From an uncultured Synergistales bacterium (GTDB taxonomy: Bacteria; Synergistota; Synergistia; Synergistales; Aminobacteriaceae): DNA of 64,000 nucleotides. The stretch is taken from positions 1 to 64,000 of the forward strand of contig CAJOMU010000003.1 of the NCBI GenBank assembly GCA_905235735.1, read 5' to 3'. A program made the translations under genes and the position numbers. A model generated the notes under the pieces. That model saw nothing but the letters and a program-made list of their open reading frames with translations. It did no database searches and was not told where the DNA came from. Of this stretch, positions 35,529 to 50,888 are shown piece after piece. Each line of letters opens with the position of its first letter. Position 1 is the stretch's first letter.

Positions 35529-36125
35529 ATGAATTTTCCTGTCAGTGAACATATGCTTGAAGAGAATTATGACGAGATTATGCCGCTCATCGATGAATTA
35601 TCCTGGCAAAGTCGTAATCGAATATGGGATACATGTCCTGAATTCGTGAAGTCCGCAGGAACTTGGGAATGCCTGAAGAAGATTCATGTTTTGATGTTCG
35701 AGGGACTGTTTGAGTTTTCGGGAATGCTTCGCACAAAGAATATCTCAAAGAGAGGATGCAGATTCGCAAATGCATTGTTCCTTGAGAAAATTATTCCCGT
35801 AATTGAAGATATGCCGCAGAAGAATTTTCATGACATCATAGAGAAATATATCGAGATGAATATTGCTCACCCATTCAGAGAAGGTAACGGAAGAGTTATG
35901 CGCTTGTGGCTTGATGCTATTCTTGAACGTGAACTTGATACTCGAATCAACTGGTCGAATATCTCTCGCAATGATTACCTTTCAGCAATGCAGAGAAGTC
36001 CGGTTAACTCTCTTGAACTTGAAGTGCTCCTCACACATAACATGCTTGCTCCTCATGAACTTAGCGATGAAGTTAAATTCATGGCCTCGCTGAATGCATC
36101 ATACGGTTACGAAAAATTTTCATGA
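35529..36125 (+). CDS. Fic/DOC-family protein
   Basis: A 198-residue single-domain protein that probably transfers AMP or another nucleotide moiety to a target protein. The active-site signature HPFREGNGR is complete at 114-122, including the catalytic His114, and a flap-like strand is present at about 64-72. ATG 35529 (GAGGTGAT about 6 nt upstream) is preferred to GTG 35520. No inhibitory helix ([S/T]xxxE[G/N]) was recognised at either end, and no small antitoxin gene is adjacent. The next gene, hisH, begins 43 bp later and looks unrelated in function. Confidence 0.85.
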   Translation: MNFPVSEHMLEENYDEIMPLIDELSWQSRNRIWDTCPEFVKSAGTWECLKKIHVLMFEGLFEFSGMLRTKNISKRGCRFANALFLEKIIPVIEDMPQKNFHDIIEKYIEMNIAHPFREGNGRVMRLWLDAILERELDTRINWSNISRNDYLSAMQRSPVNSLELEVLLTHNMLAPHELSDEVKFMASLNASYGYEKFS

Positions 36126-36168
36126 TGTGGTATAGTGAATCAAAAATTTTCACGAAGGGTATTATTTC

Positions 36169-36777
36169 ATGATTGCAATCGTAAATTACGGCGTGGGAAA
36201 TCTATTCTCACTCGAATCTTCTTTCAATGCTATAGGTCAGAATGTCATCGTTACTTCAGATCCTAATGACCTTAAACACTCAGACAGAATAATTCTGCCC
36301 GGCGTAGGTGCGTTTGAAGACGCAGCACGTAAACTCTTCGCGTCAGGATTAGCTGAACCTCTCATTGATGAAGCTCGCAAAGGCAAGCCAGTTTTAGGTA
36401 TATGTCTTGGAATGCAATTACTGTTCACGAAAAGCTATGAGTTCGGAGTTCATGACGGATTAAATCTCATTCCAGGAGACGTTAGACCTATTAGTGATAT
36501 TATTCCTGCTGACTTCAAGATTCCTCAGATAGGATGGAATTCACTTCACTTAACGAAGCCTTCAGGGCTATTCGCAAATTCTCATGAAGGAGATTACGTT
36601 TACTTCGTGCATTCGTATTCTGCGTTCTGCGATTCAGGTTACATCACTGCAATTACAGATTATGGTGCTGGTCTCACTGCGGCGGTTCAGTTCGGGAACG
36701 TCTACGGTGCACAGTTTCACCCTGAGAAAAGCGGCAATGTAGGCTTGAATATGCTTCGTGCGTTCTGTGAGGTGTAA
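36169..36777 (+). CDS. hisH: Imidazole glycerol phosphate synthase, glutaminase subunit
   Basis: A 202-residue class I glutamine amidotransferase that supplies ammonia to HisF. The nucleophile is C79 in LGICLGMQLL. The catalytic His/Glu lie in AQFHPEKSG near residue 184. The N-terminal VNYGVGNLFSL fits HisH. It is the first gene of a tightly spaced histidine-cobalamin run. hisA begins 1 bp after its stop. The hisG, hisD, hisB and hisC genes are not in this window. Confidence 0.96.
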   Translation: MIAIVNYGVGNLFSLESSFNAIGQNVIVTSDPNDLKHSDRIILPGVGAFEDAARKLFASGLAEPLIDEARKGKPVLGICLGMQLLFTKSYEFGVHDGLNLIPGDVRPISDIIPADFKIPQIGWNSLHLTKPSGLFANSHEGDYVYFVHSYSAFCDSGYITAITDYGAGLTAAVQFGNVYGAQFHPEKSGNVGLNMLRAFCEV

Positions 36778-36778
36778 C

Positions 36779-37498
36779 ATGATTATTCTTCCGGCAATCG
36801 ATTTGTTTCACGGTCAGGCAGTCAGACTTCTTCGGGGAGATTACGACAACATGACCGTTTATGACACTGAACCTGTGAACACTGCGATGAAGTTCAAAGC
36901 GTCTGGTGCAGAATGGATTCATATTGTCGATCTCGAAGGTGCGAAGTCAGGTGATACTCCCAACATCAAAACTGTAACTGAGATAAAACGTTCATGTAAT
37001 CTCAAGTGTGAGGTTGGCGGAGGAATTCGGGACATGAAGACCATTGAACGTTACATTGAATCTGGAATAGACCGCGTGATTCTCGGAACTGCGGCAGTAA
37101 CTCATGAAGGTTTCGTTAGGGAAGCAGTTAATGCCTTCGGAAGTGAACACGTTGCTGTAGGCGTTGACATTAAGAATGGGAACGTTGCGATTAAAGGCTG
37201 GATTGAAAGTTCAGATGTAAATGCGTTCGAGTTCTGTAGACGAATGGAGAATGACGGCGTTGATGTTATCATATGCACGGATATTTCACGGGACGGAGCA
37301 ATGAAAGGCACTAACAGAGAACTCTATGATGCAATGAGCAGACAGTTTAACATGAAGATAATCGCGTCTGGAGGAGTAAGCTCACTTGATGACGTGAAAG
37401 CACTCGCAGGAATGAATCTTTATGGTGCGATTATAGGCAAGGCATATTACACAGGAGCAATAGACTTGAAACAGGCAATAGAGGCGGCGAAATCATGA
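36779..37498 (+). CDS. hisA: ProFAR isomerase
   Basis: A 239-residue TIM-barrel enzyme for the fourth step of histidine synthesis (ProFAR to PRFAR isomerisation). The true start is ATG 36779, giving MIILPAIDLFHGQAVRLLRGDY, the family N terminus with the catalytic Asp8. CEVGGGIRDMKTIE and IASGGVSSLDDVKAL are the phosphate-binding loops. The open frame extends 7 codons upstream into hisH, but that part is not conserved. Its end overlaps hisF by 4 bp. Confidence 0.96.
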   Translation: MIILPAIDLFHGQAVRLLRGDYDNMTVYDTEPVNTAMKFKASGAEWIHIVDLEGAKSGDTPNIKTVTEIKRSCNLKCEVGGGIRDMKTIERYIESGIDRVILGTAAVTHEGFVREAVNAFGSEHVAVGVDIKNGNVAIKGWIESSDVNAFEFCRRMENDGVDVIICTDISRDGAMKGTNRELYDAMSRQFNMKIIASGGVSSLDDVKALAGMNLYGAIIGKAYYTGAIDLKQAIEAAKS

Positions 37499-38253
37499 TA
37501 ACGAAACGAATAATCCCATGCTTGGACGTTCGTAACGGGCGAGTGGTCAAAGGCGTAAACTTTCAGGGATTGAATGACGTGAATTCCCCCGTTGAACTCG
37601 CGAAATACTACAGCGATAACGGTGCTGATGAATTAGTCTTCTATGACATAACTGCATCGTCTGACGGTCGCAAGATTTTCACTGACATTCTTCGTGAGAC
37701 TGCAAGAAACGTATTCATTCCCCTCACTGTTGGAGGCGGCATATCTGGTGTGTCTGACTTCGAGAGAGTGCTGTCATGCGGTGCGGACAAGGTGAGCGTG
37801 AATACAGGAGCAATCATGAACCCGAATCTCATTCCTGAAGCGGCAAAATTATACGGCTCTCAATGTGTCGTAATATCGGCTGACGTTAAGCGAGTTGATG
37901 GTCAGTTTCACGTCTTCGCGAGGGGAGGACGCGATGATACAGGCATTGAGGCTATCGGCTGGATTCGCAGATGTGTTGATGCAGGTGCAGGTGAGGTTGT
38001 TCTGAATTCAATTGACACTGACGGAGTGAAACAGGGATTTGATTTAGAGATGCTCAAGGCAGTATGTGATGTAGTGAGCGTTCCTGTCATTGCGTCAGGA
38101 GGTGCAGGTTCAATTGATGATTTCATCAGCCTCTTTAAGACTGTTCCGGGAGTTGATGCAGGACTTGCCGCGTCAATCTTTCACTTCGGAGAGGTTGCAA
38201 TCATGGACTTGAAACACAGAATGTATGATGAAAATATACCAGTGAGGTTATAA
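37495..38253 (+). CDS. hisF: Imidazole glycerol phosphate synthase, cyclase subunit
   Basis: A 252-residue TIM-barrel partner of HisH that makes imidazole glycerol phosphate and [20 protein letters not shown] (with catalytic Asp11), [23 protein letters not shown] (second catalytic Asp) and [12 protein letters not shown] are all present. ATG 37495 overlaps the stop of hisA (ATGA), and hisIE follows 2 bp after its stop, so translational coupling is likely across hisA-hisF-hisIE. Confidence 0.97.
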
Positions 38254-38255
38254 GT

Positions 38256-38909
38256 ATGGTTGATATTAATGAACTGAAATTTGATTCTAACGGGCTAATT
38301 CCCGCAATTGTCGTTGATGATGATTCTGGTGATGTTCTCACTCTCGCTTACATGAACCGTGAGAGCCTGAATATATCACTTGAAAAGAAACTGACGTGTT
38401 TCTGGAGTCGTTCACGTCAGGAATTATGGCTGAAGGGTGAAACCAGCGGGAACTATCAGCACATAAAGGAAATAGTTGCGGATTGCGACCGTGATGCATT
38501 GCTCGTGTATGTTAAGAAGGACGGCCCTGCTTGCCATTTGGGTAATGCTTCATGCTTCGTTGATGACCTCATGATACGCGAGAAGGAAGCGCACGAGAAG
38601 TTCACAGTCTGCGGGTTAATGGAACTGATTAAAGGCAGGAAGACAGAGAAAGTTGAAGGTTCATATACTACATATCTGTTTGAGAAGGGATTAGATAAGA
38701 TACTCAAGAAGATTGGTGAAGAAAGCTCTGAAGTCATAATTGCGTCAAAGAACAGCAAACAGGAAGCAGTATACGAGATTTCAGACCTGATTTATCATCT
38801 GCTCGTGCTCATGGCCGAAATGGGAATTGAGATTAAAGACATCATAAAGGAATTAGCATCACGTCATGTGATAGACAAGAAAGTTAAGCAGGAGAAAATG
38901 ACTTCATGA
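38256..38909 (+). CDS. hisI: Bifunctional phosphoribosyl-AMP cyclohydrolase / phosphoribosyl-ATP pyrophosphohydrolase
   Basis: A 217-residue HisIE fusion covering steps 2 and 3 of histidine synthesis. The N-terminal cyclohydrolase domain (about 1-105) has [20 protein letters not shown] and [10 protein letters not shown] with metal-binding cysteines (including [11 protein letters not shown]). The C-terminal pyrophosphohydrolase domain (about 115-205) has [16 protein letters not shown] and the [12 protein letters not shown] helix. It is followed by the PHP phosphatase with a 4 bp overlap. Confidence 0.95.
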
Positions 38910-39685
38910 TACTTTCAGACTTTCATGTTCATACATGCTATTGCGACGGCAAAGATTCACCCGAAGATGTTGTGATTGAAGCAATATCGCGAGGAATGAA
39001 GAAACTCGGTTTTTCCGGGCATTCTTACACATGGTTTGATGAAGAGCCGTGCATGTCCAAAGACGGAACGGAAGAATACAAGCGTGAAATCTGGAAGCTG
39101 AAGCGTAAATATGAAGCACAGATTGAGATTCTCTGCGGAACTGAACAGGATTATTATTCGGATATGCCGGTTGATGATTATGACTTCGTTATCGGCTCAG
39201 TTCATTACGTGAAATGCGGCAATGAATACATTCACGTTGACCATAAGCCCGAAATGCTGACTGACGCGATAGATAAATACTTCGCAGGTGATACTTATGC
39301 ACTGGCAGAAGCATATTATGATTCGGTTTCTGATGTCGTGAACAGAACACATGCAGACATAATAGGACACTTTGATTTACTCACGAAGTTCAATGAACAG
39401 GTACGAATCTTCGATGAGGATAATGAACGCTATGTTACCGCGTCAAATAATGCACTGGATATGTTACTGAAGACAGGAAAGCCATTCGAGATTAACACGG
39501 GAGCAGTCTCACGAGGATACAGAACCTCACCGTACCCGTCTGAACGCATTCTGAAGTATATTGCAGAACATAACGGGACTGTCATTATGTCGAGCGATTC
39601 ACACGACAAGAACAATCTCATGTATGCATTTAATGAGTGTGAAGAACTTGCGCGTAAACTTGGCCTGAAGGTTGTTGAGCTATGA
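38906..39685 (+). CDS. hisK: PHP-family histidinol-phosphatase
   Basis: A 259-residue polymerase/histidinol-phosphatase-family metallophosphatase. The N-terminal [11 protein letters not shown] (metal-binding HxH), GFSGHS, GTEQDYY, GHFDLL and SSDSHDKNN motifs fit the HisK/HisJ type, which dephosphorylates histidinol phosphate. The position after hisIE supports that substrate. It overlaps both neighbours by 4 bp. The gene symbol follows B. subtilis usage (hisK is also called hisJ). It is the last histidine gene before the cobalamin genes begin. Confidence 0.88.
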
Positions 39686-40422
39686 TATATTTCATAGGTG
39701 CAGGGCCTGGAGCAAAAGACCTAATCACCGTGAGAGGAGCTAATATTCTGCGAATGGCAGGAATTATCGTGTATGCAGGTTCTCTCGTAAACCCTGAACT
39801 TGTTGCTGAATATGCAAGTCCGAAATGTGAATTGCATGACAGCTCACGATTGACGCTTGAGGAGATACTTGCGATTCTGCTTAGAGGCCATGAAGAGAAT
39901 ATTATTACTGTCAGACTGCATTCAGGAGACCCTTCGCTGTATGGTGCAGTGCGTGAACAGATGAATTATCTGCGGGAACGAAACATTCCATTTGAGGTTG
40001 TGCCGGGAGTAAGTTCACTCTTTGCCGCATCTGCTGCATTGAAGACAGAGTACATGATTCCCGGAATCACTCAGACGCTCGTGATTTCACGCATTGAAGG
40101 ACGTACTCATGTTCCGAATGATAATGCATCAGTTGCACTCTTTCTGTCAGCTGGAATGATTGAGCGTGCATGTTCGGAATTGATTGAACGGGGATATTCA
40201 CCAGACACTCCTGCGGCTGTGGTGTATCGTGCATCATGGCCTGATGAGAGGATCATTCGCGGAACTCTGGCAACTCTTCCGAAACTCTCAGACGGAATCA
40301 CTAAGAGTGCATTGATTCTTGTGGGTGAATTCCTGAACGATGACATAAACGCATACTCGAAGTTATACGACAAAAATTTTTCGCATGAATACAGAAATCA
40401 TAACAGCAGCATTCACGAATAA
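39682..40422 (+). CDS. cbiF: Cobalt-precorrin-4 C11-methyltransferase
   Basis: A 246-residue SAM-dependent tetrapyrrole methylase. The N-terminal [47 protein letters not shown] (the SAM loop) and VPGVSSLFAASAALK follow the CbiF/CobM pattern. It adds the C-11 methyl in the ring-contracting middle of anaerobic cobalamin synthesis. It begins inside the end of the histidinol-phosphatase gene (4 bp overlap) and its end overlaps cbiG by 38 bp, an unusually long overlap. Confidence 0.93.
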   Translation: MIYFIGAGPGAKDLITVRGANILRMAGIIVYAGSLVNPELVAEYASPKCELHDSSRLTLEEILAILLRGHEENIITVRLHSGDPSLYGAVREQMNYLRERNIPFEVVPGVSSLFAASAALKTEYMIPGITQTLVISRIEGRTHVPNDNASVALFLSAGMIERACSELIERGYSPDTPAAVVYRASWPDERIIRGTLATLPKLSDGITKSALILVGEFLNDDINAYSKLYDKNFSHEYRNHNSSIHE

Positions 40423-41371
40423 GGGAATAGATTTAGCGTTGAGACTTGGTTATAGAGTGTTTGTACCTGAGAGGTTATATCGTGAGGGTACAGAGGCAAT
40501 AACTGAACCGTTAAGCGTGTGGGCAGGAAGATATTTTCATTCGGTTATAGCGTTCGTGTTCATTGGTGCATGCGGAATTGCTGTGCGTTCTGTTGCTCCT
40601 CATCTCAAATCTAAGCTCACTGACCCTGCCGTTATTGTCATTGATGAAGCCGGAAAATTCGTTGTGCCGGTTCTATCTGGTCATATCGGAGGAGCGAATG
40701 AACTTGCGCGTATGATTGCTGATACGATTCATGCTCAGGCAGTCATAACGACAGCTACGGACGTGAATAATATTCCTGCGGTTGATGAATGGGCAGTGAA
40801 GAATGATTGCGTTATCGAGAATCCAGAGAACATAAAACGCGTTTCAGGTTCAATGCTTGAAGGACATTCTGTAGGCGTTGCTGTTACATCTGAGAATGTA
40901 CCTGCTCCGTTCCCTGTAACATTATGGCTGAGGCCAAGAGAGTTGGTGTTGGGTGTTGGGTGTCATAATGGAATTCATGCGGATGAATTTGAACATTCAG
41001 CAATTGATTTTCTTGCTGGTGCAGGTGTGAGCGTTCTATCACTGAAAGCACTTGCATCAATAGATAGACGAGCTAATGAACCTGCATTGATTTCGTTTGC
41101 GGAGAAACATAACATACCTTTTATTACGTTCAGTGCAGATGAGCTTAATGCGCTTACAGGGAAATTTTCGGGGTCTGATATTGTAAGGCGTTCAGTTGGG
41201 ACTGATTGCGTGTGTGAACGTTCATGTATGCTTGCGGCTGGAGAAAGAGCAGTGCTGTTACGGAGTAAATGCGTGTATGGTAATATGACATTTGCGTTAT
41301 CGAGGTGCGGCAGAAACAAAATGTACGCAGGAGGGAAATGTATACATGGCGGAATTAGATACGATAAATAA
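40385..41371 (+). CDS. cbiG: Cobalt-precorrin-5A hydrolase
   Basis: A 328-residue CbiG that opens the delta-lactone ring and releases acetaldehyde. The central IGACGIAVRSVAPHLKSKLTDPAVIVIDE and VPVLSGHIGGANELAR segments are diagnostic. The C-terminal half (RELVLGVGCHNGI) is the CbiG C-terminal domain. The start, ATG 40385, lies inside cbiF. The last part of the gene overlaps the start of the antitoxin-like gene by 26 bp; its final 20 or so residues (RCGRNKMYAGG...) are longer than usual and may be altered by an insertion here. Confidence 0.92.
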   Translation: MNTEIITAAFTNKGIDLALRLGYRVFVPERLYREGTEAITEPLSVWAGRYFHSVIAFVFIGACGIAVRSVAPHLKSKLTDPAVIVIDEAGKFVVPVLSGHIGGANELARMIADTIHAQAVITTATDVNNIPAVDEWAVKNDCVIENPENIKRVSGSMLEGHSVGVAVTSENVPAPFPVTLWLRPRELVLGVGCHNGIHADEFEHSAIDFLAGAGVSVLSLKALASIDRRANEPALISFAEKHNIPFITFSADELNALTGKFSGSDIVRRSVGTDCVCERSCMLAAGERAVLLRSKCVYGNMTFALSRCGRNKMYAGGKCIHGGIRYDK

Positions 41372-41696
41372 AAGTTACATGGAGAAACCTATTTTTATCA
41401 GACGTTCCTCACTCAGGCATTTGAAATTTAATGTCTCCATTTTTGAAGAAGATGACGGCTCTTTTACAGGCACACTTGAAGAACTCGATTTGATAGAAAA
41501 TGCACATTCAAAAGAAGATTGCATTGTTTCTTTGCTGAAGGCCATGAAGGAATATGCTCAGGATTTTTATAACGAATATAGCTTGTGGTCATCAGCACCT
41601 AACAGAAAAAATCATATACCTTATGTGCTGAAGATTCTTTCTGGGTCTGACAGTGAGCTTATGAGGGATATAGTATGCCAAAATGGAAAGAGCTAA
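41346..41696 (+). CDS. HicB-like antitoxin
   Basis: A 116-residue protein started at ATG 41346, about 10 nt after AGGAGG. The upstream part of the open frame lies within cbiG and is not used. Residues about 17-100 (SIFEEDDGSFTGTLEELDLIENA...) fit the partially degraded RNase-H-like fold of HicB-type antitoxins. The end overlaps the toxin gene by 22 bp. It sits inside the cobalamin operon between cbiG and cbiC, so its transcription probably depends on the operon promoter. Confidence 0.65.
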   Translation: MAELDTINKSYMEKPIFIRRSSLRHLKFNVSIFEEDDGSFTGTLEELDLIENAHSKEDCIVSLLKAMKEYAQDFYNEYSLWSSAPNRKNHIPYVLKILSGSDSELMRDIVCQNGKS

Positions 41697-41893
41697 AACG
41701 TTTCTGTGATAATGACGGCTGGGAATGCTATAAAGTTACAGATCATTATTTTTATCGTAAAATTCTTTCCAATGGCGAAATTTTGTTTACTAAAGTTTCA
41801 ATGGGAAGCGGAGAAATTCATAAACATATGTGGCAGCAAATTAGAAGCAGACAGCTTAAAGTAACTCAGGAATATTTCAACAGCAAAATATGA
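41675..41893 (+). CDS. HicA-like toxin
   Basis: A 72-residue basic protein (MPKWKELKRFCDNDGWECYKV...). The KELKRFCDNDGWE, DHYFYRKILSNGEILFTKVSMG and IHKHMWQQIRSRQLK segments suit a small dsRBD-fold mRNA interferase of the HicA type, a family often called cytotoxic translational repressor. A His in IHKHMW may be the catalytic one. Its start lies in the antitoxin gene and its stop overlaps the start of cbiC (ATGATG at 41890), so the pair is wedged into a coupled operon. Confidence 0.65.
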   Translation: MPKWKELKRFCDNDGWECYKVTDHYFYRKILSNGEILFTKVSMGSGEIHKHMWQQIRSRQLKVTQEYFNSKI

Positions 41894-42498
41894 TGATAAT
41901 ACAACCAAATGAAATTGAACTCGAAAGCATGAGAATAATTCACGAGGCTATAGGCGAGTATAATGGCCCTTCTGAAAACCTGCCTGTCATTATGCGCGTC
42001 ATTCATGCATCTGCTGACTTCGATTTTCTTCACACTCTCACGTTCTCACATAATGTAGTCAGTCTCGCTCGTAATGCCCTCCGCAATCACACTCCCATAA
42101 TCACAGATACGAATATGCTCATGTCCGGCATCACCAAACGTTACGGAGTGAAGATCATATGCTCAATGTCAGACGAAGACGTAAAGACCGAAGCGCAATC
42201 TCGAAATATTACGCGTGCAATCGTGAACATAGAACATGCAGTGAATAAATATCCCAATGCAATATACGCAATCGGAAATTCACCAACAGCTTTAATCCGT
42301 CTCTGCGAATTGATTCGTGAAGGTAAAGCAAATCCTTCACTCGTTATCGGTGTACCTGTAGGGTTCGTGAATGTCATTGAGGCTAAAGAAATGTTATCGG
42401 AACTCAAAGACATTCCAAGAATCATAGCTACGGGCAATAAGGGAGGAAGTACAATCGCTTGTGCAATCGTGAACGCTCTCCTCTACGGACTGGAATAA
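41890..42498 (+). CDS. cbiC: Cobalt-precorrin-8 methylmutase
   Basis: A 202-residue enzyme that moves a methyl group from C-11 to C-12 to give cobyrinate. RVIHASADFDF, TDTNMLMSGI, AIGNSPTALIRLCELIREGKANPSLVIGVPVGFVNVIEAKE and ATGNKGGST are all conserved CbiC segments; the catalytic His is in VIHAS. It starts at ATG 41890 or 41893. Its 3' end overlaps cbiD by 40 bp. Confidence 0.95.
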   Translation: MMIIQPNEIELESMRIIHEAIGEYNGPSENLPVIMRVIHASADFDFLHTLTFSHNVVSLARNALRNHTPIITDTNMLMSGITKRYGVKIICSMSDEDVKTEAQSRNITRAIVNIEHAVNKYPNAIYAIGNSPTALIRLCELIREGKANPSLVIGVPVGFVNVIEAKEMLSELKDIPRIIATGNKGGSTIACAIVNALLYGLE

Positions 42499-43526
42499 CT
42501 ACAGGCACATGTGCAGCAGGTGCAGCTAAAGCATACGCATTGTATCTCCGTTATGGTTCATGTCCCGATTACGTCAGCATAAAGAATCTTGAAGGCCATG
42601 TATTTACGCTTCACGTATTCAAAGAGGGAGATTCATTCGGAGTGATTAAGGATTCAGGCGATGATGTTTCTGACATAACAAATGGGGTAAAAGTTCTCGT
42701 TCATCTTGAAGTCCTTCAAGGCAATCATGAAATTATATTTGAAGCTGGCAATGGTGTTGGTACTGTTACGCTTCCAGGTCTCAAAGTCGGAATCAATGAG
42801 CCTGCAATAAATCCTGTTCCTAGAAAAATGATTGAGCTTGCCATTCGTGAAGTGATACCTGAGAAATCATTTCGCGTTATCATTTCCATTCCGAATGGTG
42901 AAGAACTCGCAAAGAAAACTTTTAATCCAAGATTAGGCATAATCGGAGGGTTATCGATATTAGGCACAACAGGCATAGTTAAACCCATGAATGAATCTGC
43001 ATTGCTTGAATCTCTAAGTCTCGAACTCAATATGATTCGTTCACTCGGATTCACTGAAGTATATATCACGTTCGCAGGTACAGGAGAAAAATTTCTGCGT
43101 CAGAGATTGAGAATCAAATCACGAAATGTAATTCAGTCTGGAAACTATATAGGCCATGTTCTTGATGAAGCAGCACGATTAGAATTCACTCACGCAGTCA
43201 TCTTCGGTCATCCAGGAAAGTTACTGAAGGTTGCATCCGGGAACTTCAACACTCACAACAGAATAGCAGACGGAAGACTTGAAGCACTCTGCACACAGCT
43301 CGCAATCATTGGGGTATCACGAAGCATGATTGAACGCGTATATCACAGCAACACTACGAATGAGGCAATGAGCATTGTTGATTCAGAAGGCTATAATGAG
43401 GTCTGGAATGTATTGGCAGAAATCGTATCGCGTAAATGCAGAGAGAGGACATGTAACAGCATGAAAGTTGATTCATATTTTGCTGACAATGACGGCAATA
43501 TTCTGGGGTATTATGTCGATGAATGA
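42459..43526 (+). CDS. cbiD: Cobalt-precorrin-5B C1-methyltransferase
   Basis: A 355-residue CbiD that methylates C-1 of the corrin ring. The start is TTG 42459, about 9 nt after GGGAGG (42441-42446); the conserved N terminus LRTGITTGTCAAGAAKAY follows at once, so TTG is well supported. PGLKVGINEPAINPVPRKMI, GISILGTTG-type GGLSILGTTGIVKPMNE, and HPGKLLKVASGNFNTHNRIADGR are family motifs. It overlaps cbiC by 40 bp and cbiET by 14 bp. Confidence 0.95.
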   Translation: MCNRERSPLRTGITTGTCAAGAAKAYALYLRYGSCPDYVSIKNLEGHVFTLHVFKEGDSFGVIKDSGDDVSDITNGVKVLVHLEVLQGNHEIIFEAGNGVGTVTLPGLKVGINEPAINPVPRKMIELAIREVIPEKSFRVIISIPNGEELAKKTFNPRLGIIGGLSILGTTGIVKPMNESALLESLSLELNMIRSLGFTEVYITFAGTGEKFLRQRLRIKSRNVIQSGNYIGHVLDEAARLEFTHAVIFGHPGKLLKVASGNFNTHNRIADGRLEALCTQLAIIGVSRSMIERVYHSNTTNEAMSIVDSEGYNEVWNVLAEIVSRKCRERTCNSMKVDSYFADNDGNILGYYVDE

Positions 43527-44703
43527 GATAGTTGTTGCTGGTGCAGGCATTGGAGATTTTACGCATGAAGTTCAAAGTGCACTGAATGAAGCTGATGTTG
43601 TGCTTGCAAGTTCACGGTTCAGAGATTTAATTCCTCAAGGTAAACGCATAATTGACCTGAAAGATTTTGATTCGTCGTTCAGTCAGCTTGAACATGAACA
43701 CGGTAACAAATTAATCCTTCTGTCTGGGGATTCGTGTCTGTTCAGTTTACTTCCGATGATAAAGAAACGTTTCATGAATATTCGTGTTCTGCCGGGCATA
43801 AGTTCTTTGCAGGTATTATGCGCCCGTGCATGTGAAATATGGAATGATGCAGTTATCTTGTCTGGACATGGCCGGACGTTAAGAGCAGGTACATTCCTGA
43901 ATATAGTTGAACGTAACCATCTCGTTATCCTCTTCTGCGACCGTAATATATCGCCTCAATGGGCATGTGAAAATCTCAATCGCATTCACGGAGATATTGA
44001 AGTCTTCATAGGGTGCAATCTTGGCCTCAATGATGAGCAGGTGTTTCACGGTAAACCAGAAGAGTTTATGTGTCAGAATTTCCCTGAGCTGTCGATAATC
44101 CTCGTGAAGAATCATAACGTCTATGTGCCGGTAAATTTTCATCTCCGCGATTCCGAATTCATACGCGAGAATAGTATCGTGATGACGAATGAATGTGTAC
44201 GTTCGGTTGTTCTGTCGCGTCTTAATCTCAATCATGATTCTGTCTTGTGGGACATAGGAGCAGGTTCGGGAAGCATAAGCATATCGGCAGGCCATGAAGA
44301 GATATACGCTGAGATTCACGCAATAGAGTACAGGCATGAAGCCGCAGATTTAATCTCACGCAACGCATCGCATTTTCACACTCATAATGTAATCATTCAT
44401 GAAGCACGTGCACTTGATGTTCTTCATACATTGCCTCAGCCTACACATATATTCATTGGAGGCTCTGAAGGTGAGCTTGACGGTATATTAGAATATATAT
44501 CACAAATGAAAAGCTCAGTTCAAATTATGATTGCATGCGTAACACTTGAGACTTTCAGCAGGGCATATGAAGTTCTAAGAGACTGGGAAAATTTCGAGGC
44601 AGTACAGATTTCGGTGAACACATCAAAGCATCTCAACCCTTCAATGACTCTCATAAATGCAAGAACTCCAGTAATGATTCTCAGCGCGAATCATAATGTA
44701 TAA
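43513..44703 (+). CDS. cbiET: Fused cobalt-precorrin-6B/7 methyltransferase-decarboxylase
   Basis: A 396-residue CbiE-CbiT fusion, like CobL. Starts at ATG 43513 or 43519 both follow GGGGTATT; the open frame extends further upstream but only within cbiD. The CbiE half (about 1-200) is a tetrapyrrole methylase (VVAGAGIGDFTHE, GDSCLFSLLPM, VLPGISSLQ). The CbiT half (about 210-390) is a Rossmann methyltransferase with LWDIGAGSGSISIS. It ends the cobalamin run; the cbiL, cbiH, cbiJ, cbiA and later genes are not in this window. Confidence 0.93.
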   Translation: MSMNEIVVAGAGIGDFTHEVQSALNEADVVLASSRFRDLIPQGKRIIDLKDFDSSFSQLEHEHGNKLILLSGDSCLFSLLPMIKKRFMNIRVLPGISSLQVLCARACEIWNDAVILSGHGRTLRAGTFLNIVERNHLVILFCDRNISPQWACENLNRIHGDIEVFIGCNLGLNDEQVFHGKPEEFMCQNFPELSIILVKNHNVYVPVNFHLRDSEFIRENSIVMTNECVRSVVLSRLNLNHDSVLWDIGAGSGSISISAGHEEIYAEIHAIEYRHEAADLISRNASHFHTHNVIIHEARALDVLHTLPQPTHIFIGGSEGELDGILEYISQMKSSVQIMIACVTLETFSRAYEVLRDWENFEAVQISVNTSKHLNPSMTLINARTPVMILSANHNV

Positions 44704-44743
44704 TAGCGCATTGAAAAAATTTTTTGACGGAGGAAGTTTCATC

Positions 44744-45541
44744 ATGAAGAAAATTTTAGCAGTTATTCTCACGCTGGCATTAAGTGCAGGCGTATGTTTT
44801 GCTGAAGGCTTGAACATCTCGAAGGCAGAAGAGTTCGTGAACTACAAGATAGGAACTCAGAGAGGAACAATAGCAGAGGGGATCGCAAGAAAGATGCTCG
44901 GCGATAAAGCAGGTGCACAGCTCACGACTTACGAGAAGGCAACCGATGTAATTCAGGCATTGAAGGTCGGAAAGATTCAGGGTGCAATTATGGACGAGGC
45001 TCCAGCGACACAGTTCAAGAGGAATGACCCTGATGTGCTTACGATTCTTCCTGAGCCTTTGACTACAGAACAGTATGCAATCGGATTCAAGCAGGGCAAC
45101 AAGGAATTGCTTGAACAGGTCAACAAGGCACTCGCAGAGATTAAAGCGGACGGTTCACTTGAGAAAATCATGCTGAAGTACAAAGAAGACCCGACTGCGG
45201 CCAAGCCAGAAGATATTGATTTGCATGTTGGTGCTTCAGGCGGAAAGTTATATCTCGGAACTGAATCAGGTTTCCCTCCTTATGACATTAAGGTTGGAGA
45301 CGGCTACACAGGAATCGATATTGAGATGTGTGCGCTCATTGCAGGGAAGTTGAACAGGGAACTTGTTATTATTGCATACCCATTTGATTCACTGTTCATG
45401 GCTGTGAACTCAGGGAAGGTTGATATGATCTGCGCAGGAATTACGGTTAATGAGGAGAGAAAGTTATTCACGGACTTCTCAGAGCCGTATGAAAATGCAG
45501 CACAGGTAGCAGTGATACTGACGAAGGATTACGCGAAATAA
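44744..45541 (+). CDS. Amino-acid-type solute-binding protein with swapped halves
   Basis: A 265-residue secreted binding protein. A signal peptide spans residues 1-20 (MKKILAVILTLALSAGVCFA). The start at ATG 44744 has GGAGGAAG upstream. Residues 34-146 match the second half of SBP_bac_3 proteins (KIGTQRGTIAEG..., YEKATDVIQALKVGKI, ADGSLEKIMLKY). Residues 167-262 match the first half (KLYLGTESGFPPYDI, GIDIEMCALIAGKL, GKVDMICAGITVNEERK, DFSEPY). The order is therefore reversed relative to the family, like a circular permutation. It should bind an amino acid in the periplasm. No ABC permease or ATPase gene is adjacent. A terminator follows. Confidence 0.8.
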   Translation: MKKILAVILTLALSAGVCFAEGLNISKAEEFVNYKIGTQRGTIAEGIARKMLGDKAGAQLTTYEKATDVIQALKVGKIQGAIMDEAPATQFKRNDPDVLTILPEPLTTEQYAIGFKQGNKELLEQVNKALAEIKADGSLEKIMLKYKEDPTAAKPEDIDLHVGASGGKLYLGTESGFPPYDIKVGDGYTGIDIEMCALIAGKLNRELVIIAYPFDSLFMAVNSGKVDMICAGITVNEERKLFTDFSEPYENAAQVAVILTKDYAK

Positions 45542-45565
45542 TTAATCATTCACGAAGCTCATTTG

Positions 45566-45598
45566 AATCCCTCTGTTAAAATTCAGGGGGATTTTGTT
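45566..45598 (+). terminator. Rho-independent terminator after the binding-protein gene
   Basis: AATCCCTCTG (45566-45575) pairs with CAGGGGGATT (45584-45593) in a 10 bp stem around an 8 nt loop, followed by TTGTT. The next gene's ribosome site is downstream, so ThrE expression would need read-through or its own promoter. Confidence 0.8.
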
Positions 45599-45625
45599 AT
45601 GTTGTTACAAGGAGGAAATAAATTT

Positions 45626-46870
45626 ATGCCACAGGAAAAAAGTAATGTTGATGAGATATTAGACTTCTGCGTAAACTTAGGCCGTAAAATGATAATCAGC
45701 GGCGCAAATCTCGAACGTGTTCATCTTGCAATAGAATTCATCTGCAAAGCCTATAATCTGAAAGACCTTAGCATCTACATGCTGAGTACTCATATATCAC
45801 TCGGCGCATACGATTCAGAAGGGAGGTATGCATCACGTCAGGCATCAATACCTGCAGCAGGAATTCATCTCGACAGACTCCGAAGCCTGAATCAATTATC
45901 GTATAAAGTTGCAGAAATAACCCCTCCGACGAAATTGCTTGCAGGAATGTTAGAGAAAGCATATCAGGTTAGAGACTACAATGATATAGTGATTCTTTTC
46001 GGAAAAATTTTTGCTGTGATATGTCTGTGCTTTATGTTCGGAGGTTCATTCAGTGATTTAATTCCTGTTGCGTTCGTCGTTGCATTGATTCATTTCATGA
46101 CAAAGATACTCGAAAAGACCGGCTTAGATCGTCTGGTCTGCAATGCATTAATAATGTTCAGTGCAGTTTCACTCGCGATATTGTTTGTGTATTCAGGGTT
46201 CAATCACAATCTTCCCGCAGTGCTCATATGCGTATCACTTCTCATGATTCCAGGTATACCTCTCGTGAATGCCATGCGTAACCTATTATGCGGAAGTGAG
46301 ATCAACGGAATACTTCAGATGTTGAAAATCTTTGTTGATACTATGGCTCTTGGAATGGGTATCTATCTTGCTATGTGGCTGTTTGCAGGCAGAAGTCTTG
46401 TCGGTGAATCTTATTCTTACGAGGCTTTGAATCCTTCAGTCATGGTTATACTCTCATTCATTGCATCAGTGAGTTTCGGTGTCGTATTCAGGATACCTCC
46501 CAGAGATTTATGGCTCGCTGGTCTCGGAGGAGTATTAGCACGAATAGCACTCCTAACGCTTACACCGTTAATGTCAGAGAGACTATCATACATGACAGCT
46601 TCGGCATTAGTTGCGGCACTTTACGCTGAATTTCTCGCAGTCAGACGAAGACAGCCGTCTACATATTTCGTTTACCCTTCGATGATTCCATTGATACCTG
46701 GTGATCTGTTCTTCTTCGCGTTAATTGGTCTGTATATCGGTGATATATCTATATTCCTATCACAAGGAATCAATTGCCTGCTATCACTTTCAGGATTGAG
46801 CATAGGATTCGTTTTGAGTTCAACTGTCTCGCATTATATCCGCAGAATAAGATACGAAATGCAGCGATAA
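45626..46870 (+). CDS. Threonine/serine exporter, ThrE family (ThrP-ThrE fusion)
   Basis: A 414-residue protein from ATG 45626 (AAGGAGG about 10 nt upstream; the open frame extends earlier without support). The N-terminal hydrophilic part (1-115) carries a DUF1212-type domain with CVNLGRKMIISGANLERV and YMLSTHISLGAYDSEGRY. Ten or so helices follow (DUF1212 and DUF3815-type halves), including SLLMIPGIPLVNAMRNLLCG and FVYPSMIPLIPGDLFFFALIGL. ThrE proteins export threonine and serine by proton-motive force. The neighbouring binding protein imports amino acids, but a functional link is unproven. Confidence 0.85.
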   Translation: MPQEKSNVDEILDFCVNLGRKMIISGANLERVHLAIEFICKAYNLKDLSIYMLSTHISLGAYDSEGRYASRQASIPAAGIHLDRLRSLNQLSYKVAEITPPTKLLAGMLEKAYQVRDYNDIVILFGKIFAVICLCFMFGGSFSDLIPVAFVVALIHFMTKILEKTGLDRLVCNALIMFSAVSLAILFVYSGFNHNLPAVLICVSLLMIPGIPLVNAMRNLLCGSEINGILQMLKIFVDTMALGMGIYLAMWLFAGRSLVGESYSYEALNPSVMVILSFIASVSFGVVFRIPPRDLWLAGLGGVLARIALLTLTPLMSERLSYMTASALVAALYAEFLAVRRRQPSTYFVYPSMIPLIPGDLFFFALIGLYIGDISIFLSQGINCLLSLSGLSIGFVLSSTVSHYIRRIRYEMQR

Positions 46871-46873
46871 AAA

Positions 46874-46902
46874 ATCCCTCCCCATTTCGTGAGGAGGGTC
46901 AT
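46874..46902. terminator. Convergent terminator between the ThrE-type gene and abgT
   Basis: CCCTCC (46877-46882) pairs with GGAGGG (46893-46898). An A-run on the left serves the minus-strand gene as a U-tail. Support on the plus strand is weaker. Confidence 0.55.
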
Positions 46903-46916
46903 TCGTTCATTTATTC

Positions 46917-48482
46917 TTACAGCCCTACAGATACACCAGGCCCTAATGGAATCCCAACGAGATACCAGATCACTAACAGCACAGTGAATCCTACAAGATA
47001 GAACAGTGAGTAAGGCATTGCCATTGATATTACTGTTCCAATTCCAACCTCTGTATCATCATTCGGCTTGTACTGCTCAAGCAATCCAATCATGACCGGC
47101 AGATAATATGACAGAGGCGAGATTATGTTCGTGGTTGAATCTCCGATACGATATGCTACCTGCGTCAATGCAGGAGAGAAACCTACGCCCGCAAACATTG
47201 GAACGAATATAGGTGCAAGTATTAGCCATTTAGCAGACCCGCTTATCATGAAGAGATTCAGGAACGTTACGAGAATGATAAACAGAATCAATAACGGTAT
47301 ACCTCCGAGATTCATGCTCTTCAGGAACTCCGCACCCGTAACAGACAGAATCGTATCGAAATGGCTCATTCTGAAAAGTTCAACGAACAATGATGCAGGC
47401 AAGACCACAACCATAAATCCAGTACTGCCGACTAAACCCTTCTGCATTAACTTCGGAACATCTTCACCCTTCTTAATCACTCCCGCTCCTATTCCGTATG
47501 CAGTGCCGATCACAAAGAATAATCCGAACAGTAACGGCATAACACTGCTCAGTAATGGTGAACGAGGAAGAATATCACCGTTTGCAGGGTTACGGAACAA
47601 TGAACCTTCCGGATATGTCATCCACACTATCAATGCTATATATGCAATTAAAGCTATTAATGCGCAGAACAGTCCGTGATTTTCTTCAGGGGTTACTGCA
47701 TGTTTCTTCAGTTCTTCTTCATCATGGCCCATGTCATTGTCTCCGAGCATCTTCACTATATAGCGTTCTGTTACGTAAACTGTCAGGAAGGTCAATACGA
47801 ATGTTCCTGCCATCATGAAGTACCAGTTGATTAACGGGTGTGTAGGTGTTCCTTCGGGGATATAAGGTACACCTTCAATAGCAGTTGTCGTTATCCCTGA
47901 GAGCAATGCATCTGTTCCAGCAATGAATAAGTTCGCCGTGAATCCTCCTGCACCTGCCGCATATCCCGCCGCAATCCCTATCCATGGATTTCGTCCCAAT
48001 GCCTTAAAGACCGCTCCAGCTATTACGGGAGTGAATATGATTCCTGCATCAGAGGCAAGGTTTGCGTTTATGCCAACGATAGCTATCACTGCCGTAACAA
48101 GTACACGAGGTGCACCCAGAATCGTTTTTCTCATCAGTGCCGAAATCATTCCTGTCTGTTCGACAAGTCCAATTCCAAGCATCATTGTGAGAATTAATCC
48201 CAACGGCGCAAAATTCATGTAGGTCTTCACGAAATTAGCGAAGAATGTACGAAGTGAATCATACGAGAGCAAATTTATCACTGCAACCGTCTGTTCCGTA
48301 ATCTTTCCCGACTTGCTCACCATATACGACACTTCTTTTCCCTGAAGCCAGTATGACAGCCCGAAGAGTATCAATGAGAGCACTACGAACAGCCAGAAAG
48401 GATGAGGAAATTTGTTGCCTATAACCTCAATGGCATAAATGAATTTCTCAAAGAATGAACGCTTTTGCAATTTATCATTCAT
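46917..48482 (-). CDS. abgT: AbgT-family p-aminobenzoyl-glutamate (or drug) transporter
   Basis: A 521-residue inner-membrane protein with about nine to eleven helices and two re-entrant hairpins. LVEQTGMISALM, NLASDAGIIFTPVIAGAVFKALG, GGFTANLFIAGTDALLSGITT and SGSAKWLILAPIFVPMF fit AbgT, including the Na+-linked NxxSD-type regions. AbgT imports p-aminobenzoyl-glutamate; some relatives export sulfonamides. The upstream M20 amidohydrolase on the same strand (49 bp apart) is the classic partner that cleaves the amide, so folate-fragment salvage is likely. Confidence 0.9.
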   Translation of the reverse strand: MNDKLQKRSFFEKFIYAIEVIGNKFPHPFWLFVVLSLILFGLSYWLQGKEVSYMVSKSGKITEQTVAVINLLSYDSLRTFFANFVKTYMNFAPLGLILTMMLGIGLVEQTGMISALMRKTILGAPRVLVTAVIAIVGINANLASDAGIIFTPVIAGAVFKALGRNPWIGIAAGYAAGAGGFTANLFIAGTDALLSGITTTAIEGVPYIPEGTPTHPLINWYFMMAGTFVLTFLTVYVTERYIVKMLGDNDMGHDEEELKKHAVTPEENHGLFCALIALIAYIALIVWMTYPEGSLFRNPANGDILPRSPLLSSVMPLLFGLFFVIGTAYGIGAGVIKKGEDVPKLMQKGLVGSTGFMVVVLPASLFVELFRMSHFDTILSVTGAEFLKSMNLGGIPLLILFIILVTFLNLFMISGSAKWLILAPIFVPMFAGVGFSPALTQVAYRIGDSTTNIISPLSYYLPVMIGLLEQYKPNDDTEVGIGTVISMAMPYSLFYLVGFTVLLVIWYLVGIPLGPGVSVGL

Positions 48483-48531
48483 GAGATTATCTCCTCCTTT
48501 TAAGAATATTCATACAATTATAATTTACATC

Positions 48532-49713
48532 TCATGAGTTCAGATAGTCAATTACACTTCCAGTGAAGAAATTGATTCCGTAAATGAAACATGATTCATC
48601 AGGACAGAACTTTTTGTTATGCAACATGGCAGTATCCTTCACACTTTGATTCAATGGTCTGCACCCTAACCATGCCATAACCGCAGGACGTTCACGCGCA
48701 AAAAATGCAAAGTCCTCCGCTCCTAGTTCAGGCTGTTCCGCAACAATCAAAGCATCATTGCCGATATGTTTTCTCACTGACTCACATACTTTTTCAGTCA
48801 GTCCTGAATCATTCACCGTAGGAGGATAACCCTTCACGTATTCCACATCACATGTAGCACCAAATGCAGAGGCTATGTTCTTCGCTGTACGTGTTATGAG
48901 TTCGGATATTTGATTCTGTACATCAGAGTTCACTGTTCTCACTGTGCCTTCAATCTTCACGCAGTCGGGAATGACATTGTAACGATAACCTCCGTTTATT
49001 TTTCCGATTGTGAGAACCGCAGAGTCCAACGGTGAAACTGAACGCGATATTATGCTCTGCAATCCCGTTATTATGTGCGCAGACGCAACTATTGCATCAA
49101 CTCCCTGATCTGGTCTCGAACCGTGTGCTGTCTGTCCGTGAACCGTCAGATATATTCTGTCTGACGCTGCCATTAATGAACCTGAACGTGTAATAATCTT
49201 CCCAGTCTCATATAATGGCCATACATGAAGTGCGAGCATTGCATCAACATTAGGATTCTCAAGTACACCATCACGAATCATGCCTGGTGCTCCTCCTATT
49301 GGATTCCATTCTTCGGCTGGCTGAAAGATGAACTTCACATTGCCTTTCAGATTATCTTTCATCTCCGACAATACACATGCAGTACCCAATAACATGGCCG
49401 TATGTGTATCATGTCCGCATGCATGCATAACCCCTTCATTCAACGAGGCATATTCAAGCCCTGTCTCTTCGTTCAATGGAAGTGCATCCATATCCGCACG
49501 TAACGCAATCGTTTTTTCTCCGCCTTCATTCTTTCCTCGAAGCAATCCAACTACACCATAGCCTCCTACATTACGTGTAACCTCAAGGCCAAGACCTTCA
49601 AGAACATTTGCAACGAGTTCTGATGTTCTCTCTTCATGCTGGCTCAATTCAGGGTGTGAATGAATATCCCTTCGCCATTCGATAACTTTATCAATATATT
49701 TTTCTCCGTACAT
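48532..49713 (-). CDS. M20 amidohydrolase (AbgA/AbgB or N-acyl-amino-acid hydrolase type)
   Basis: A 393-residue M20D peptidase-family hydrolase. The metal-binding MHACGHDTHTAM (about 92-103), PAEEWNPIGGAP and ALHVWPLYETGK segments, and GAEDFAFF near the C terminus, are present. The length and motifs match IAA-amino-acid hydrolase-like enzymes. Its position directly before abgT suggests it cleaves p-aminobenzoyl-glutamate, although E. coli uses two subunits (AbgA and AbgB) and only one is present here. It is divergent from the CDF gene across 68 bp. Substrate is inference. Confidence 0.82.
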   Translation of the reverse strand: MYGEKYIDKVIEWRRDIHSHPELSQHEERTSELVANVLEGLGLEVTRNVGGYGVVGLLRGKNEGGEKTIALRADMDALPLNEETGLEYASLNEGVMHACGHDTHTAMLLGTACVLSEMKDNLKGNVKFIFQPAEEWNPIGGAPGMIRDGVLENPNVDAMLALHVWPLYETGKIITRSGSLMAASDRIYLTVHGQTAHGSRPDQGVDAIVASAHIITGLQSIISRSVSPLDSAVLTIGKINGGYRYNVIPDCVKIEGTVRTVNSDVQNQISELITRTAKNIASAFGATCDVEYVKGYPPTVNDSGLTEKVCESVRKHIGNDALIVAEQPELGAEDFAFFARERPAVMAWLGCRPLNQSVKDTAMLHNKKFCPDESCFIYGINFFTGSVIDYLNS

Positions 49714-49781
49714 TTATCATCACCTCTGCATTAAATGATATACTCATCACTTAAATATTCAAAAGCAGGAAGGTTAAAACT

Positions 49782-50888
49782 TTGGAAGACAGAGAAAAGA
49801 AAATTATTCGTGTCAGCTTAATCGGAATCACTGCTAATGTTCTTCTCGCAGGATTTAAATTTCTTATCGGCTTAATGTCTAATTCTATTGCAATCATGAT
49901 TGACTCTCTGAACAATGCAAGCGATGTTCTCTCGTCAGTCATAACTGTAATCGGAACTAAACTCGCAAATCGTCCGGCAGATAAATCTCATCCGTTCGGG
50001 CACGGAAGAATCGAATACATCAGCGCGGCAGTCATTTCGGCAATCATTATGTATGCAGGAATAACAGCACTCATTGAATCATCAAAGAAGATTCTGAATC
50101 CTAGTACACCTGAATATTCAACTGAGACTATCATTATCGTATCTGCTGGCATAATCGTTAAGATACTCCTCGGACGTTACGTAAGCTCTCAGGGAAAAAA
50201 GCTATCATCAGATTCACTCGTGAATTCAGGTAAAGATGCTTTGATGGATTCTGCTGTGTCTTCTTCAACTCTTCTTGGTGCTTTTGCGTTCATTCTGTTC
50301 GGGATAAATCTTGAGTCATGGCTCGGAGCATTCATCTCAATCATCATCATAAAAGCAGGAGTTGATATGTTCAGGGAGACAACGAGCAAGATTCTCGGTG
50401 AACGTGCAGAAAGCGGATTCACCAATGCCATAAAGGAAACCATATGCAAGACTGAAGGTGTTTTCGGTGCTTACGATTTGATTCTCACTAACTATGGGCC
50501 TGATATGCTCATGGGGTCTGTTCACATTGAAGTCCCTGAAAGCTGGACGGCAGAGAAAATTGATATAGTCAGCCGTGAGATAATGCATCGTGTATACACT
50601 GAACATCACATCATACTTGCTGCTGTAGGAATATATTCGCATAATTCAAATGATGAAGTCATGAAGATTCGCACTGAAGTAACAAGGGCTGTAATGTCTC
50701 AGGATTACGTACTTCAGATTCACGGATTCCATTGCAGTACTCAGGAGAAGGTTATACGCTTCGATGTAGTGATAGATTTTGCTGCTCCTGATTCAAATGA
50801 AGTTTACCGTAATGTCCTTGAGAAAATACAGGCTCTTTATTCCGACTACAGAATAACAGTACAACTCGACTCCGATTATTCAGATTAA
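49782..50888 (+). CDS. Cation diffusion facilitator family metal exporter
   Basis: A 368-residue CDF protein. The start is TTG 49782, with AGGAAGGT about 7 nt upstream; no ATG fits better. Six helices fill residues 12-210. The transport-site helices show DSLNNASDVLSS and DALMDSAVSSST, a pattern closer to Mn/Fe-type than to the His-containing Zn-type CDFs, though metal choice cannot be fixed by eye. HPFGHGRIEYISA is the loop signature. Residues about 215-368 form the cytoplasmic domain, longer than usual and perhaps containing a second ferredoxin-like unit. It is convergent with the CitG-like gene. Confidence 0.88.
   Translation: MEDREKKIIRVSLIGITANVLLAGFKFLIGLMSNSIAIMIDSLNNASDVLSSVITVIGTKLANRPADKSHPFGHGRIEYISAAVISAIIMYAGITALIESSKKILNPSTPEYSTETIIIVSAGIIVKILLGRYVSSQGKKLSSDSLVNSGKDALMDSAVSSSTLLGAFAFILFGINLESWLGAFISIIIIKAGVDMFRETTSKILGERAESGFTNAIKETICKTEGVFGAYDLILTNYGPDMLMGSVHIEVPESWTAEKIDIVSREIMHRVYTEHHIILAAVGIYSHNSNDEVMKIRTEVTRAVMSQDYVLQIHGFHCSTQEKVIRFDVVIDFAAPDSNEVYRNVLEKIQALYSDYRITVQLDSDYSD

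Follow-up and report, generated by a model that had tools for sequence, protein, structure and literature searches.

Naturally circularly permuted SBP_bac_3 binding proteins in Synergistota and their relatives, with a second permutation and long permuted arrays

The locus and its gene product

The window (the whole 64,000-nucleotide stretch analysed here) carries a gene at 44744..45541 (+) that encodes 265 amino acids from the ATG at 44744, and the coordinates and translation given in a preliminary description of this DNA proved correct. Another in-frame ATG lies upstream of the assigned start, at 44696; the orthologues share the start Met of the window protein. The product opens with a signal peptide, read by eye as residues 1-21 (44744..44806, +), with a hydrophobic helix at residues 2-20 in the predicted model. 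It is followed by the former second half of an SBP_bac_3 protein, now first (residues 24-146, 44813..45181, +), which comprises lobe 2 and the C-terminal part of lobe 1, by a new linker from the old C-terminus to the old N-terminus (residues 147-166, 45182..45241, +; placed by profile search and alignments), and by the former first half, now last (residues 167-262, 45242..45529, +), which ends in the strand following hinge 1. Both halves were delimited by profile and AncQR alignments and by the model. Two residues are invariant in 33 aligned permuted proteins, namely Asp84 (44993..44995, +), expected to contact the ligand ammonium group and presumably the equivalent of GlnBP Asp157, and Arg239 (45458..45460, +), expected to contact the ligand carboxylate, which we take to be the equivalent of GlnBP Arg75. 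An Arg/Asp pair of this kind serves as the amino-acid clamp.

Upstream, 41890..44703 (+) holds the corrin-synthesis genes cbiC, cbiD and a TP_methylase (cbiE-like) ORF, the last of which, at 43468-44703, precedes the window-type gene in 21 of 34 orthologue loci, several loci ending nearby. No permease adjoins the window gene, an orphan behind the corrin genes, and no RNA element at 36000-50000 reaches the gathering score. Elsewhere in the window, 29589-35402 encodes a 1937-aa protein with a GGGCDAG-hydrophobic-RRR tail, also found on an L019 protein, that we take to be a Synergistota sorting signal.

The two halves of SBP_bac_3 occur in reversed order

The swapped order of the halves, proposed from the sequence alone, is borne out by PF00497, TIGR01096, AncQR alignments and a doubling test, all of which agree. 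In Pfam, the whole protein scores above the gathering threshold (PF00497, E 8.3e-30, 103.7 bits versus a cut-off of 26.4) and is matched in two stretches, the best aligning residues 171-261 with profile positions 3-92. Searched separately, the first half places residues 78-146 on profile positions 97-129 (E 2.9e-7), and the C-terminal piece alone again covers positions 3-92 (E 1.4e-21). NCBIfam TIGR01096 aligns residues 12-146 with its positions 109-249 of 250, and on AncQR (4zv1) residues 166-258 fall on 9-102 and residues 25-146 on 109-230. Since the AncQR alignment breaks there, the cut lies between about AncQR 102 and 109, past the strand following hinge 1 (we assume the hinges to be at GlnBP 85-89 and 181-185). 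The preliminary description had placed the new termini at the hinge; they are indeed near hinge 1, with the correction that they sit in a lobe-2 loop after the strand following it. The chain now starts and ends some ten residues beyond the first hinge, so that both lobe crossovers are kept.

A single collinear match over the full length, which had been named as evidence against a permutation, was not found by profiles, AncQR or the doubling test, and for PF00497 it is rejected by the two reversed stretches. We term this order type A, in which lobe 2 and the end of lobe 1 come first and the start of lobe 1 last; a second order, type B, is described below. For the doubling test, mature proteins were aligned to eight canonical references written once versus twice. 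The score of the window protein rises 1.41-1.82 fold over the eight references. Among sampled pairs, type A shows a median gain of 1.73 (320 pairs) and type B one of 1.25 (192 pairs), whereas canonical proteins stay at 1.00 (313 pairs), as circular permutation predicts. Because the stretches run in reversed order, we regard the window protein as a permuted derivative of SBP_bac_3 and not as a canonical member. Among the matches listed (60 of 95 and 60 of 119), no SBP_bac_3 structure with this order was found by sequence; 6h30 is a tandem, and its match spans its domain boundary.

The predicted fold resembles OpuAC in topology

AlphaFold2 was given an alignment of 33 type-A proteins, that is, relatives of the same order, from which L199 (stops) and L175 and L189 (both suspect) were left out. 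The proposed AlphaFold check yields a compact, two-lobed model of the monomer (pLDDT 91.3, pTM 0.83), and a Lachnospira relative modelled with 15 sequences scores similarly (pLDDT 85.7, pTM 0.80). From this model, the window protein is predicted to have the two-lobed type II binding-protein fold. The best sequential PDB match is OpuAC 2b4l (Z 13.8 over 216 residues, 4.0 A), with model residues 17-265 superposed on chain residues 5-264, and many canonical amino-acid binders match at Z 11-12 only, values that refer to sequential matching, the sole kind returned by Foldseek and VIA-align. The N-part superposes on ArgBP 4prs at 1.6 A with 36% identity over 90 residues. Type I sugar binders are absent among the structural matches listed, and the profile of the window protein is that of SBP_bac_3.

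OpuAC, the glycine-betaine binder of Bacillus subtilis, has the same linear topology and differs in sequence family: Pfam at E up to 0.001 gives PF00497 alone for the window protein, with no OpuAC profile. Since OpuAC is the best sequential match, yet there is no OpuAC sequence match, an SBP_bac_3 protein appears to have adopted an OpuAC-like linear order, and the likeness is one of topology, not of family membership. Circular permutation is reported in PMC2395249 among the betaine-binding proteins, the group to which OpuAC belongs.

Permuted paralogues, operon context and selection

The order of the window protein is not a one-off. The source genome, a 41-contig draft, has 16 PF00497 matches, none of them an array, and a family of eight permuted paralogues: the window gene, C21:2500-3324, C21:7725-8549, one on C25 and four on C6 (three in a row). 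For two of the eight the profile sees the N-part only and the order comes from the paralogue alignment, in which five members have diverged to 19-22% identity and, judged by eye, lack the clamp residues. The canonical proteins are C1:91126 (255 aa) and one within a 756-aa kinase-like ORF. At another locus, L017:111-5877, three divergent permuted paralogues stand in tandem directly behind two ORFs, which by eye resemble HAMP/SpoIIE-type phosphatases, hinting at a sensing role.

The paralogue at C21:2500-3324 shares 54-56% identity and the same clamp residues with the window protein; its gene overlaps a permease gene by 17 bases and lies beside a PAAT-type permease and ATPase pair. Across the 37 loci of the paralogue group (L163-L199), the gene directly precedes a permease in 36, and an ATPase follows in 35, the sole locus with neither being L168, a window-type gene. 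Purifying selection is evident: of 20 orthologues taken from the 34 window-group loci, six had saturated dS, and the other 14 gave dN/dS of 0.04-0.08 against the window gene. The median is 0.058 over those 111 pairs, out of 210, whose dS lay between 0.05 and 2. Together with the recurrence of the gene, this selection rejects a pseudogene reading. Among tree rows, the Arg239/Asp84 pair is R/D in 10/13 Synergistota type-A, 36/36 Lachnospiraceae type-A, 7/7 type-B and 14/14 canonical Lachnospiraceae proteins, and in 4/13 array units.

Distribution in Synergistota and beyond

The search for the same order in other Synergistota, suggested in the preliminary description, returned stand-alone matches of nearly full length in 44 of the 149 Synergistota genomes sampled, made up of all 38 genomes of the genus (G054 cut short) and six in four other genera of the family. 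The named relatives are ruminant Synergistaceae and Fretibacterium. Orthologues in ruminant Synergistaceae share 76-100% identity (best 80 of 464 relatives), and the complete Fretibacterium fastidiosum genome NC_021038.1 has the same order at 51% identity. When 12 genomes of other genera were searched with PF00497, full-length canonical matches dominated, with permuted layouts by half-profiles in G049, G098 and G001.

Outside the phylum, 92 of 200 Lachnospiraceae genomes match at 1e-30, and half-profile order assigns type A in 43 of the 200 (28 stand-alone, 17 fused, 2 both). Other listed Lachnospiraceae rows are mostly split matches; 21 of 24 canonical-looking loci examined were confirmed as canonical, and the remaining three turned out to be type B (L281, L282) and type A (L283). 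Canonical relatives often occur at 50-66% identity per half within the same bacterial family, and in a Lachnospira MAG (L206) a type-A unit fused to a PAAT permease and followed by an ATPase has a canonical fusion adjoining it. For the class of the Lachnospira genome, 24 of 291 genomes match at 1e-40, and the 20 loci examined from these are all permuted (15 type A, 5 type B). Close type-A relatives are concentrated, since only 3 of 398 genomes of its phylum match at 1e-45. Verrucomicrobiota contribute matches at 1e-30 in 2 of 194 genomes, one a type-A permease fusion and the other a C-N-C-N-C-N array. Three candidates proved canonical: L208 (Verrucomicrobia), found with a permuted query, and L303 and L302, suspected from partial matches and resolved by half-profiles and by eye, respectively. 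The finding is thereby larger than first noted, extending to two permutations, three phyla and long permuted arrays.

A second permutation

The second order, type B, is seen in L281, L282 and L301, which open at hinge 2 with the final third of the second half, continue through the whole first half into lobe 2 and end just before hinge 2. With L281 as query, near full-length collinear matches occur in 21 of 200 Lachnospiraceae genomes (40-100% identity, frames <350 aa), with one further weak collinear row (G205), and 20 of 21 type-B loci read C-N-C by half-profiles, the last piece of L326 being read by eye. This order cannot derive from the type-A cut. Type-B loci in Lachnospiraceae and others of its class are L281, L282, L301, L307-L327 and L352-L356.

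Permuted arrays fused to a permease

Giant frames in the genus consist of a signal, (C-N)n and a permease. The frame at L092:1358-11107 (3249 aa) has 12 SBP_bac_3 stretches and one PAAT permease domain, those at L053:644-7426 and L054:1667-8425 have eight units each, and L093 and L098 have six (by half-profiles, with Pfam on L053). The C-to-N gaps of the arrays measure 16-22 residues (median 18, n=107) and the N-to-C gaps 1-30 residues (median 12, n=81; often Pro/Ser-rich by eye), versus a canonical N-to-C median of 3 (n=55); on account of these lengths, each permuted C-N pair most likely folds as one unit, tethered to its neighbours by flexible linkers. By these arrays, L053:7410-8504 and L054:8409-9482 encode an ABC ATPase with an extra C-terminal part of ~110 residues, for which Pfam gives no match in L053 and which by eye recalls anti-sigma/HATPase-like domains.

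Origin of the permuted order

In the first tree, array rows represent 13 of 64 array representatives, and the first AU tests left out 20 of 111 rows (long branches and one type-B row). Constraining type A of both groups, or all type A plus arrays, gave a better tree than the free search (p-AU 0.66 and 0.67), and a single origin of type A is allowed by these tests. Type B falls in three places of the tree, with L354 joined to a canonical protein at 96, and a single type-B clade is not rejected (p-AU 0.17). In the second tree (91 rows; support values are SH-aLRT only), the window family (9 rows, 100) groups with permuted and canonical proteins of Clostridia (84), apart from the canonical Synergistota proteins (11 rows, 84). 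Because of this grouping, the tree suggests that the window family descended or was transferred from a Clostridia-like source. Permease sequence, tried as a marker of shared descent, is uninformative, with ~45-54% identity to ours beside both permuted and canonical Lachnospiraceae genes.

The type-A order probably arose once, in a common ancestor of the Clostridia and Synergistota forms, and the ancestral step would be a duplication into a tandem, after which the outer halves were lost. Of the earlier proposal of a permuted but foldable protein that arose by tandem duplication, the first part agrees with the sequence, the predicted fold and dN/dS; the route is plausible, and is favoured because canonical tandems of the form (N-C)x3-permease and permuted tandems of the form (C-N)n-permease coexist in the same groups. 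A fusion of half-genes from two parents, or a fission and re-fusion, would be another route to this order; a mixed origin is raised by the authors of TpMglB-2 for their own protein in PMC4990184. We consider such an origin unlikely, as good scores for both halves come from one and the same set of canonical Clostridia proteins (162-207 written once, 291-374 written twice) and the families contain tandems of both kinds. A canonical triple, (N-C)x3-permease, of the tandem kind from which a permutant could arise, lies at L259:2410-5313.

A probable functional permutant and its alternatives

We consider it highly probable that the window protein is a true, functional type-A circular permutant of SBP_bac_3 and a secreted amino-acid binder. 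The old termini would be joined by the ~20-residue linker and the new ends opened in the lobe-2 loop just past the hinge-1 strand, so as to preserve both crossovers and the clamp, with Arg239 and Asp84 contributed one by each swapped half. From the preserved crossovers and clamp, the protein would be expected to work as an ordinary Venus flytrap, closing around an amino acid and handing it on to a PAAT-type ABC permease. That the order is an assembly chimera, or that the gene is a decaying remnant of a tandem binding-protein gene, might be entertained for a draft genome whose relatives do have tandem SBP genes. Yet many assemblies made independently show the same order, with 75-100% identity, as does the complete NC_021038.1 with 51%, which excludes the error near the junction raised in the preliminary description, and with dN/dS of ~0.05 and a frame free of stops the remnant reading is hardly credible either.

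Two further alternatives accept the order and concern what the chain does. One is a domain-swapped oligomer, in which a chain unable to close on itself pairs its first half with the last half of another chain; swapped elements have been seen in engineered permuted halves of ribose-binding protein, according to PMC10601554. We judge this very unlikely, given that the AlphaFold2 monomer is compact and that the C-to-N linker of single type-A proteins is near-constant (median 17, quartiles 16-19, n=207 ORFs including duplicates), as expected for an intramolecular join. The other, a sensor or storage binder outside any transporter, draws on the orphan position of the window gene. It is improbable in view of the identity and identical clamp residues shared with the operon-encoded paralogue, and of the fact that one permease is commonly shared by several binding proteins.

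Relation to known binding proteins

Most work on circular permutation concerns engineered proteins, and the present set offers two permutants that arose naturally in a binding-protein family that is among the commonest. With T. maritima ArgBP, E. coli GlnBP and AncQR (PF00497), the window protein shares the family of both halves, the clamp residues and, as predicted here, the type II fold; it differs in the order of the halves, the new linker and the new ends in lobe 2. Precedents for permuted binding proteins are known from other families, namely TpMglB-2 and the betaine binders. TpMglB-2 (Tp0684) of Treponema pallidum is described in PMC4990184 as a natural circular permutant that retains ligand binding, for which 'Type Ic / Cluster Bc' is proposed; it has a type I sugar-binding fold, another cut site and an added fourth crossover, whereas the window protein keeps the crossover number. 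In the open-access literature, which leaves most subscription papers outside its scope, we found no report of natural circular permutation in SBP_bac_3 proteins or of binding-domain arrays this long, and text search of the OpuA paper PMC2861598 and the GlnPQ paper PMC8025302 found no mention of permutation.

Tentatively, and with some doubt, these observations may be read together as follows: SBP_bac_3 was permuted more than once in nature, each time beside a hinge strand (after hinge 1 in type A, at hinge 2 in type B), type A came by convergence to share the topology of OpuAC, and its bead-like units made possible arrays in which one permease carries up to 12 of them, giving gut Synergistaceae an importer for many ligands. 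Because both ends of a type-A unit would leave lobe 2 at approximately the same spot, such units can follow one another like beads on a string, each with its lobe 1 free. As canonical relatives often stand at 50-66% identity per half, natural pairs could be used to test which steps a permutation takes and what it costs. Software built on collinearity breaks up or misplaces permuted proteins, and hinge-adjacent ends are what designers of binding-protein biosensors seek.

How a single permease could be supplied by some twelve binding domains is a question that the long permuted arrays pose. Both GlnPQ (SBD1-SBD2-permease, 6h30) and the fusions in L206, L056, L053 and L092 are tandem binding domains fused to a PAAT permease; their number is two in GlnPQ, where they are canonical, and 1 to 12 in the relatives described here, where they are permuted. 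In a further arrangement, L304:995-3694 encodes a permuted binding domain, a permease and an ATPase in one 899-aa chain.
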